Of a DNA stretch of 37,041 nt, positions 11,394-14,827 are shown in pieces. Location of the stretch: assembly GCA_027020785.1 (NCBI GenBank), contig JALUVI010000156.1, positions 1 to 37,041 on the forward strand, in the 5' to 3' direction. Position 1 is the first letter of the stretch. Every line of letters begins with the position of its first letter. Source of the DNA: Planctomycetota bacterium. GTDB taxonomy: Bacteria > Planctomycetota > UBA1135. Under the pieces are notes generated by a model. It ran no database searches and was not told the DNA's origin. It saw nothing but the letters and a program-made list of their open reading frames with translations. The position numbers and the translations under genes were made by a program.

Positions 11394-11765
11394 ATGCCGA
11401 CCATCAACCAACTCGTCCGCAAGGGCCGCAAGCCGCCGAAGAAGCGGTCCAAGAGCCCCGTGCTCGAGTCCTGCCCGCAGAAGCGGGGGGTGTGCACCCA
11501 GGTGCGCACGATGACTCCCAAGAAGCCGAACTCGGCCCTGCGCAAGGTGGCGCGGGTCCGTCTCTCGAACGGGAAGGAGATCACGGCCTACATCCCGGGT
11601 GAGGGTCACAACCTCCAGGAGCACTCGATCGTGCTGGTCCGCGGCGGTCGCGTCCGCGACCTGCCCGGCGTCCGCTACCACATCATCCGCGGTACCCTGG
11701 ACTGCGCCGGCGTGGACGGGCGCAAGCAGAGCCGCTCCAAGTACGGAACGCGCAAGGGCAAGTAG
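11394..11765 (+). CDS. rpsL: 30S ribosomal protein S12
   Basis: S12 lies at the decoding centre and controls accuracy and streptomycin response. It has 123 residues, the usual length. The decoding loops '[12 protein letters not shown]'-type (here '[12 protein letters not shown]', K43 kept) and '[13 protein letters not shown]' are present. In the second loop residue 88 is Arg (CGC at 11655-11657) instead of the near-universal Lys; K88R in this numbering is a well-known streptomycin-resistance change in mycobacteria. Asp89, the methylthiolation site, is retained. The leader is short and C-rich with no clear Shine-Dalgarno sequence. rpsG follows after 14 nt. Confidence 0.98.
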
Positions 11766-11779
11766 CCCGATTCCCGACG

Positions 11780-12250
<471 letters not shown>

Positions 12251-12284
12251 GGGCCTCCCCACTCCCGGCTCCCGCCGGAGGCCC
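12251..12284 (+). promoter_or_regulatory. Stem that sequesters the Shine-Dalgarno sequence of the Tsr3-like gene
   Basis: GGGCCTCC (12251-12258) pairs perfectly with GGAGGCCC (12277-12284) across an 18-nt loop. The right arm contains the only Shine-Dalgarno sequence (GGAGG, 12277-12281) for the GTG at 12294. A competing inner stem CCGGC/GCCGG (12265-12278) would also hide it in part. There is no U-tract, so a terminator role is less likely than translational coupling to rpsG. Confidence 0.5.
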
Positions 12285-12293
12285 ACCCCCGCC

Positions 12294-12773
12294 GTGAGCC
12301 CGCGCCCTCCCGTGGTCCTGCTGCGGCTGGACAAGGAGTCGCCGCGGAAGTGCTCGCTGACCCCGTACCGGGAACGTGGGCCCGCCGGGGTGCGCTGGAT
12401 CGACCACCGCCTGGGGCGCGAGGTCGAGGTCGGCGAAGTCACCCTGCTGCACCCCGAGGGCGAGCCGTTGGGGCCGGACGACGCCGTGCGGCCGCTGCTG
12501 CTCGTGGATTCCTCGTGGCGCGACCTGCCGCGGGTGCTGCGCGACGTGCGCGGTACGCTCCATCGGCGCCGCCTCCCGCGGGGTCTGGTGACCGCCTATC
12601 CGCGGCGCAGCAAGACCTACCGCGACCCGGACGCCGGGTTGGCCAGCATCGAGGCCCTGCACGCCGCCTTGGCGTTGCTCGGGCACCGCGACGATTCGGT
12701 GCTCGAGGGCTACCATTGGGCCGGGGAGTGGTTGCGGCGGAACGCCGAACTCCTCCCGGGGCCAGGGGAATGA
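12294..12773 (+). CDS. Tsr3-like (DUF367) rRNA aminocarboxypropyltransferase homologue
   Basis: In eukaryotes and archaea Tsr3 transfers the 3-amino-3-carboxypropyl group of S-adenosylmethionine to a pseudouridine or uridine in helix 31 of small-subunit rRNA. This 159-residue protein shows the family blocks in order: 'SPRKCS' at 16-21 (usual DPKKC[ST]), 'VTLLHPEGEPLGPDD' at 49-63 (usual VLSP...SP.D), 'LLLVDSSW' at 68-75 (usual VIDCSW), 'RRRLPRGLVTAYP' at 91-103 (usual RLLPYLVAANP), 'LASIEALHAAL' at 116-126 (usual LSCVEA) and 'YHWAGEWLRRN' at 140-150 (usual FKWG..FL..N). The NPVNYG stretch is altered. GTG 12294 is chosen because GGAGG lies 12 nt upstream; GTG 12312 is an alternative. It overlaps the next gene by ATGA. 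Family match is strong; the substrate is inferred. Confidence 0.75.
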   Translation: MSPRPPVVLLRLDKESPRKCSLTPYRERGPAGVRWIDHRLGREVEVGEVTLLHPEGEPLGPDDAVRPLLLVDSSWRDLPRVLRDVRGTLHRRRLPRGLVTAYPRRSKTYRDPDAGLASIEALHAALALLGHRDDSVLEGYHWAGEWLRRNAELLPGPGE

Positions 12774-14827
12774 CACCGAAAGCGCCGCTCCGCAACTTCG
12801 GCATCCTCGCGCACGTCGATGCGGGGAAGACGACGCTGAGCGAGCGCATCCTCTTCCTCGCGGGGATCGAGCATCGCATGGGCGAGGTCCACGAGGGCAC
12901 CGCGGTCATGGACTGGGAAGAGGAGGAGCGGGCGCGCGGCATCACCATCGGCGCCGCCGTCACCCACCTGGAGTGGCGCGACCACCGGGTCCAGCTGGTG
13001 GACACGCCGGGACACGTGGACTTCACGGTGGAGGTCGAGCGCTGCCTGCGCGTCCTCGACGGTGCGGTGGTCCTGCTCGACGGAGTGGAAGGGGTGCAGC
13101 CGCAGACCGAGGCGGTGGTGCGTCGTGCCCGGGCCCACGGGCTGCCGCTCCTCGCGATGGTCAACAAGCTGGACCGGCCGGGCGCCGACTTCGCCGCCGC
13201 GCTCGAAGACCTGCAGGAGCGGATCCACCCGGGGGCGGTGGCGGTGCACTGGCCGCTCTACGATGCGGAAGGGACGTTCCTCGGCGTGGTGGACCTGGTG
13301 GCGGAGCGCGGGCTGGTCTTCCCCGAGGGTGAGGAGCGCTCGCCCCGCATCGTCGCGCCCCCGGACTCGGGCGAGATGGCGGCGGCCTGGCGCGAGGCCC
13401 GCGACCGGCTCTGTGCGCTCGCCGCCGAAGGCGATGCCGAGCTCGAGGCGCGTTGGGTGGAGTGCGGACGGTTGGAGGCCGACGTGTTGCACGCCGCGCT
13501 CGGGCGGGCGACGCGCGCCGGGCGGCTGGTCCCGGTGCTGGCCGGTTCTGCGCTGCGTCCTTCGGCCGCCGGTCCGGTGCTGGACGCGGTGGTGGACTGG
13601 TTGCCGGGGCCGGAGGAGCTGCCGCCGGTGGTCGGCGTCGACCCCGAGGGGGAGACGGTGGAGCGCGCCCCCCGGCCCGACGAGCCCTGCGCCGCGTTGG
13701 TCTTCAAGTATCGCCACGACCGCCACGGCGGGCTCCTCTACCTGCGCGTGTATGCGGGCGTCCTCGAGGAGGGACGCCCGCTGGTGGTGGCGCGTACCGG
13801 TGCCCGGGTGCGGCTGCGCCCGCTCTACCGCATGCATGCGGACCACCGCGAGCGCGCCGACCGCTTCGGGCCCGGCGCCATCGCGGCCACGCCGGGGGTG
13901 GGGGAGGTCAGGACGGGCGACACCCTGCACGAGCCGGGGGCCCCCATCGCGCTCGAACCGCCGTCGTTCCCAGCGCCGGTCCTGCGCCGCGGGGTCGAGG
14001 TGCGTGACCCGGCCGACCGCGCCCGCTTGGAGGAGGCGCTGCGGGCCCTGGAGCGGGAGGACCCGACCCTGCGCGCCGAGGGTGATGCCGACAGCGGCAG
14101 CTGGATCCTGGCCGGGATGGGCGAGCTCCACCTGGAGGTGGCGGCCCATCGGCTGGAGCGCGAGTTCGGGCTGGCGGTGCGGCTCGGCGAGCTGCGCGTG
14201 CAGCACCTCGAGTCGGTGGCCGCGCCCTGCCGCGGCATGGGACGGGCCGAGACCCTGGGCGAGCGGCCGCAACGGCTGGAGCTGGACCTGGAGCTGGCCC
14301 CGCTCGAGCCGGGCGCCCCGAATCGGCTCGAGGCCACGGCCGCGGCCCTGGAGGTCCTGGGCCCCGAGGCCGCGGCGGAGCTGCGGGAGGAGCGGACGGC
14401 GCGGCAGCTCCACGGCGCCCACGGGCATCCCGCGGCCGGTCTTCGGATCCGGGTGGTCGGCGCCCGCCTCGAGCCGGCCTCCGGGACCGCCACCGGGGCC
14501 CTTTGCGTGGGGGCGCTCCAGGACGGGGTGCGGCGCGCCCTGGCGGAGTCCGGTGTGCTGCTGGAGCCGATGGCCGAGGTCGAGGTGGTCGCCCCCCAGG
14601 AGCACGTGTCGGCCGTGCTCGCCGACCTGCAGCAGCGCCGCGCCGACATCCGGGCCCTGGACATGGCCGGCCAGGACCGGCAGCGGGTCCGGGCGCGCGT
14701 TCCGTTCGCCCGCCTGCTGTCCTATCCGACGGCCCTGCGGTCCCTGACCCGGGGGCAGGCCGCCGCCGACGTCCGCCCCGGGGGCTTCCGGGCCCGGAGC
14801 GCGGATTCCGGGGCCGGAGGGCCTTGA
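12770..14827 (+). CDS. Divergent EF-G-like translational GTPase
   Basis: This 685-residue protein has EF-G architecture. The GTPase motifs are complete: G1 'AHVDAGKTT' (14-22), G2 'RGITI' (56-60), G3 'DTPGHVDF' (78-85), G4 'NKLD' (132-135). An EF-G type G' insert, domain II ('RMHADHRE') and domain III ('GMGELHLEV') follow. Domain IV is highly divergent: the 'GGRGQYG' block is gone, and the tip loop that normally reads H..DS is replaced by 'LEPASGT' (567-573). The 'APQEHVSAV' start of domain V resembles ribosomal-protection proteins. It occupies the fusA slot but is unlikely to be the main translocase; recycling, rescue or a specialised role is more plausible. It is coupled to the Tsr3-like gene by ATGA. 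Confidence 0.85.

Follow-up and report, generated by a model that had tools for sequence, protein, structure and literature searches.

The nearest characterised relatives of the protein described here are the archaeal Tsr3 enzymes, whose substrate is U966 (PMC7694415), the same helix 31 base that is described in PMC11698992. In bacteria, according to PMC6259748, the usual state at this site is m2G966 together with m5C967. TapT/YfiP is the bacterial enzyme of the TDD superfamily with a proven target, which is tRNA (PMC6895100, PMC7026641). A further bacterial TDD family, "pc1599", is placed in the Planctomycetes, Verrucomicrobia, and Chlamydiae (the PVC superphylum) by Burroughs and Aravind 2014 (PMC4275035), where an RNase role was then predicted for the TDD superfamily. 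A literature search found no paper giving a substrate or a measured activity for any member of this bacterial branch.

A Tsr3-like gene in a planctomycete str operon

The window, by which is meant the whole stretch of DNA that was analysed (37,041 nucleotides), contains a gene for a protein related to these enzymes. The gene and its surroundings comprise the following features.

11394 to 11765, + strand: rpsL (ribosomal protein S12), upstream; Pfam Ribosom_S12_S23, E = 2e-41
11780 to 12250, + strand: rpsG (ribosomal protein S7), directly upstream; Pfam Ribosomal_S7, E = 3.9e-55
12277 to 12281, + strand: GGAGG, candidate ribosome-binding site 12 bases 5' of the GTG start, read in the sequence
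12294 to 12773, + strand: Tsr3-like, pc1599-type protein of the TDD superfamily, 159 amino acids, predicted SAM-dependent acp transferase
12504 to 12518, + strand: VDSSW, codons 71 to 75, with the predicted catalytic Asp72 and SAM-pocket Trp75 (PMC7026641), both invariant in 40 relatives
12770 to 14827, + strand: divergent EF-G paralogue, whose start codon overlaps the Tsr3-like stop codon; TIGR00484, 488 bits against a cut-off of 659

A reading frame of 159 codons occupies exactly positions 12294 to 12773 of the + strand; it starts with GTG, and its TGA stop shares bases with the ATG that begins the following gene (ATGA, 12770 to 12773). The sequence blocks of Tsr3/DUF367 that were named in the initial annotation are all present, namely RKCS (residues 18–21), VDSSW (71–75), RRRLP (91–95), IEALHAAL (119–126), and HWAGEWLRRN (141–150). 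The protein has a single cysteine in its 159 residues. The placement of the gene between rpsG and an EF-G-like gene, alongside the genes for S12 and S7, was confirmed, the neighbours being rpsL, rpsG, and a gene for an EF-G-type GTPase.

Among the 80 nearest public loci, 60 have rpsG upstream and an EF-G-like gene downstream, and in 51 of the 80 both lie at a distance of 300 bases or less; several of the remaining loci end at contig edges. This position is kept within one planctomycete order-level group and not outside it, where no neighbour recurs beyond two or three genomes. The operon linkage, confined as it is to one order-level group, may reflect history instead of function.

Several observations were made on the EF-G genes themselves. 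The EF-G-like gene of the str operon gave no match to Pfam EFG_IV at E ≤ 0.001, and the best-scoring EF-G of the window's genome, at 936 bits, is encoded on another contig (G000:C9); relatives show this split between a divergent str-operon paralogue and a separate EF-G to varying degrees. A third EF-G-like protein (G000:C251:3281-5236), which is also found in relatives, matches in two separate portions, the G domain with 64 bits and the remainder with 415 bits.

Relationship to Tsr3 and DTW proteins

Profile searches placed the protein with Tsr3, as had been proposed, and not with the DTW family. The C-terminal domain profile PF04034 (Ribo_biogen_C) scored 30.8 bits against a curated cut-off of 29.9 (E = 2.7e-7), and the DTW profile PF03942 remained below its cut-off with 10.9 bits against 33.7. 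Matches to the NCBI Tsr3 equivalog models were weak and far under both cut-offs (35.6 against 300 bits and 35.0 against 152 bits). Vulcanisaeta distributa Tsr3 (PDB 5apg) was matched with E = 8.7e-7 by the window protein and with E = 3.6e-11 by the family profile, which matches both solved Tsr3 proteins. The resemblance to Tsr3 is above chance.

An AlphaFold2 model built with the family alignment (mean pLDDT 93, pTM 0.89) was compared with solved structures by Foldseek. The only solved structures found at E < 0.001 were two archaeal Tsr3 proteins, 5apg with a TM score of 0.71 and 5ap8 with 0.59; TapT (9kz5) came next with a TM score of 0.47 and E = 0.11. By predicted fold, too, the protein is nearer to Tsr3 than to TapT.

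A phylogenetic tree was built that took in two archaeal Tsr3 proteins, both from PDB, and 20 DTW proteins from the phylum to which the window's genome belongs. The bacterial proteins form one group, with moderate support (80/77) relative to archaeal Tsr3, and the DTW proteins form another (100/100). Assignment to DTW/TapT, which had been offered as an alternative, was rejected on the PF03942 score, the TM score to TapT, and this separate clade. Both archaeal sequences branch apart from the bacterial clade, at moderate support, and a sample of two allows no verdict on a transfer from archaea. A search for archaeal Tsr3 among plasmids found none, and a phage origin was rejected, viral contigs being without any relative.

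Distribution and conserved residues

A sample of 246 genomes from across the phylum includes 53 with a relative of the protein, one of the 53 being a weak match only, and PF04034 matches were obtained in 21 of the 26 genomes of the window's taxonomic family. The same profile matches 35 of 40 aligned relatives at E ≤ 0.01. The nearest public contigs are from Planctomycetota, with single matches in Kiritimatiellae, Lentisphaerae, Opitutales, Myxococcales, and Deltaproteobacteria. Named carriers with complete genomes are the Planctomycetes bacteria Pla86 (CP036296) and Poly30 (CP036434) and Candidatus Uabimicrobium amorphum.

In the 40-sequence alignment E15, C20, D72, W75, R92, and E120 are invariant, among others. 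These include the features of the TDD superfamily, which, besides the core fold, are an acidic residue after strand 1 (E15), the D-s-S/T-W motif (D72 and W75), and a glutamate in the penultimate helix (E120). By alignment, D72 and W75 correspond to D70 and W73 of V. distributa Tsr3, the catalytic base and the SAM-pocket tryptophan, and S21 corresponds to its T19 (roles from PMC7026641). The invariance of the Asp, the Trp, and the penultimate-helix Glu argues for catalysis, and the conservation of the Asp and Trp of acp transfer makes a SAM-dependent acp transferase, as initially annotated, a likely assignment from sequence.

The loop that follows the RRLP block reads YPRxSxxxxDPxxGLASxEA in the bacterial proteins versus NPxHYGxxxxLSxxEA in archaeal Tsr3. 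This unlike loop on the substrate side, and the overlap of the gene with that of the divergent EF-G paralogue, would suit a protein that has kept the fold but has another acceptor (either a base other than uridine or a protein, for instance the EF-G encoded next to it) or that serves as a non-catalytic assembly factor. Such a role is improbable, in view of the invariant catalytic residues in the 40 relatives and the missing conserved neighbour outside the order-level group.

Co-occurrence with DTW genes

The genome from which the window comes has no DTW-family gene. This, together with the proven tRNA target of TapT/YfiP, speaks for a protein that modifies tRNA, with acp3U formed at position 47, 46, or 20 or at a comparable uridine in a loop, the work done by TapT and DTWD enzymes. 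Across the 246 genomes, however, 13 carry both Tsr3-like and DTW genes where 11.2 were expected (Fisher p = 0.57). Because this co-occurrence is near chance, there is no sign of one gene replacing the other, and functional replacement of TapT was rejected. The lack of anticorrelation agrees with a separate function. Also against a TapT-like role are the absence of TapT's Zn-binding cysteine N-terminus from the 159-residue protein and a modelled structure that is closer to Tsr3 than to TapT. A tRNA substrate is regarded as a less likely but real possibility.

Position 966 of the 16S rRNA

It had been proposed that the protein makes an acp modification in helix 31 of the 16S rRNA, at the equivalent of E. 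coli position 966. In favour of this are the protein's nearest characterised relatives, which act on U966, and the linkage to the S12 and S7 genes. However, G occupies position 966 in each of the 24 genomes that carry the gene and have a readable 16S, a sample made up of relatives, nine of them from the window's taxonomic family, with the window's own genome and family f29 standing outside it. With numbering against E. coli rrsB, G is found in 22/22 gene-bearing and 23/23 gene-lacking genomes. In many complete genomes (L078, family f29) the 16S stretches consist of N or gave no match, so that these genomes fall outside the rRNA tests. The helix 31 loop of the 24 gene-bearing genomes is mostly AGCAAC, and most loops are without U at positions 965–970. 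One genus of the window's family (L094–L096; G249, G251, and G252) has U and not A at 16S position 968, giving the loop AGCUAC.

All 35 gene-bearing genomes tested have a strong RsmD-type match (PF03602), and Nep1 is absent from every one of them (0/35). The presence of RsmD-type proteins supports m2G966 without proving it, PF03602 being a broad family. No 16S uridine was found to be fixed in the 22 gene-bearing genomes yet variable in the 23 gene-lacking ones, a comparison of related sets that carries little weight. Because position 966 is G in the relatives, it is not supported as the target, and acp3U at this position in the window's clade is very unlikely. The base that is modified by Tsr3 being G in these bacteria, the enzyme probably acts on some other site.

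Predicted activity and probable substrate

The best explanation, which we hold to be reasonably probable, is that this planctomycete TDD protein of the pc1599 branch uses SAM to attach acp to a uridine, in rRNA or tRNA, other than 16S position 966. SAM would be bound in the manner of Tsr3, with Trp75 holding it, and, with Asp72 serving as the base, its acp (3-amino-3-carboxypropyl) group would pass to the N3 atom of the uridine. The substrate would be an RNA of the translation machinery, position 966 (G) of the 16S rRNA excluded. The minimal, Tsr3-like architecture and the position among ribosomal-protein genes tip the balance slightly towards a uridine in rRNA over one in tRNA. Against this explanation stand the confinement of the linkage to one order-level group, with no conserved neighbour outside it, the active-site loop unlike that of archaeal Tsr3, and scores far below the NCBI Tsr3 equivalog cut-offs.

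More speculatively, Planctomycetes and their relatives might carry acp-uridine in rRNA at a site for which no organism is known to have this modification; the enzyme would be a relative of Tsr3 with a different target, the bacterial position 966 being G. For this bacterial Tsr3/DTW branch, with its known motif and predicted fold, G966 turns a tempting annotation into the question of which RNA base is modified. The name "16S rRNA aminocarboxypropyltransferase", if transferred to these proteins, would probably give the wrong site. With complete genomes at hand for the named carriers, the target can be sought directly.

Comparison with known families

TapT/YfiP, DTWD1, and DTWD2 (PF03942; 9kz5) belong to the same superfamily as the window protein and share the D-x-S/T-W motif. 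The window protein differs from them in its sub-threshold PF03942 score (10.9 bits, cut-off 33.7), in its structure (TM score of 0.47), and in its separate clade (100/100), and the cysteine-rich Zn-binding N-terminus, a feature of TapT (PMC7026641), has no place in its 159 residues.

With archaeal and eukaryotic Tsr3 (COG2042, PF04034; 5apg, 5ap8) it shares the fold (TM score of 0.71), the catalytic Asp and the SAM-pocket Trp, the minimal core length, and the helix with a conserved Glu. Unlike them, it shows an identity of about 21–34%, a different loop after RRLP, scores far below the NCBI equivalog cut-offs, and a clade of its own; the U966 substrate is absent from its relatives, and there is no Nep1 partner.

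The protein is most likely a member of the pc1599 family, judged by the description of that family. Like pc1599, it belongs to a bacterial, Tsr3-related family centred on Planctomycetes, Verrucomicrobia, and Chlamydiae, with a short catalytic core bearing D-s-S/T-W, and its clade of the PVC superphylum stands apart from DTW proteins (100/100) and from archaeal Tsr3 (80/77). In the accessible part of PMC4275035, linkage to ribosomal operons is given for archaeal Tsr3, and the planctomycete str-operon linkage does not appear there. This kind of protein was already described in 2014 and is not unprecedented; what is usefully added to that description is G966 in the relatives and linkage to the str operon.
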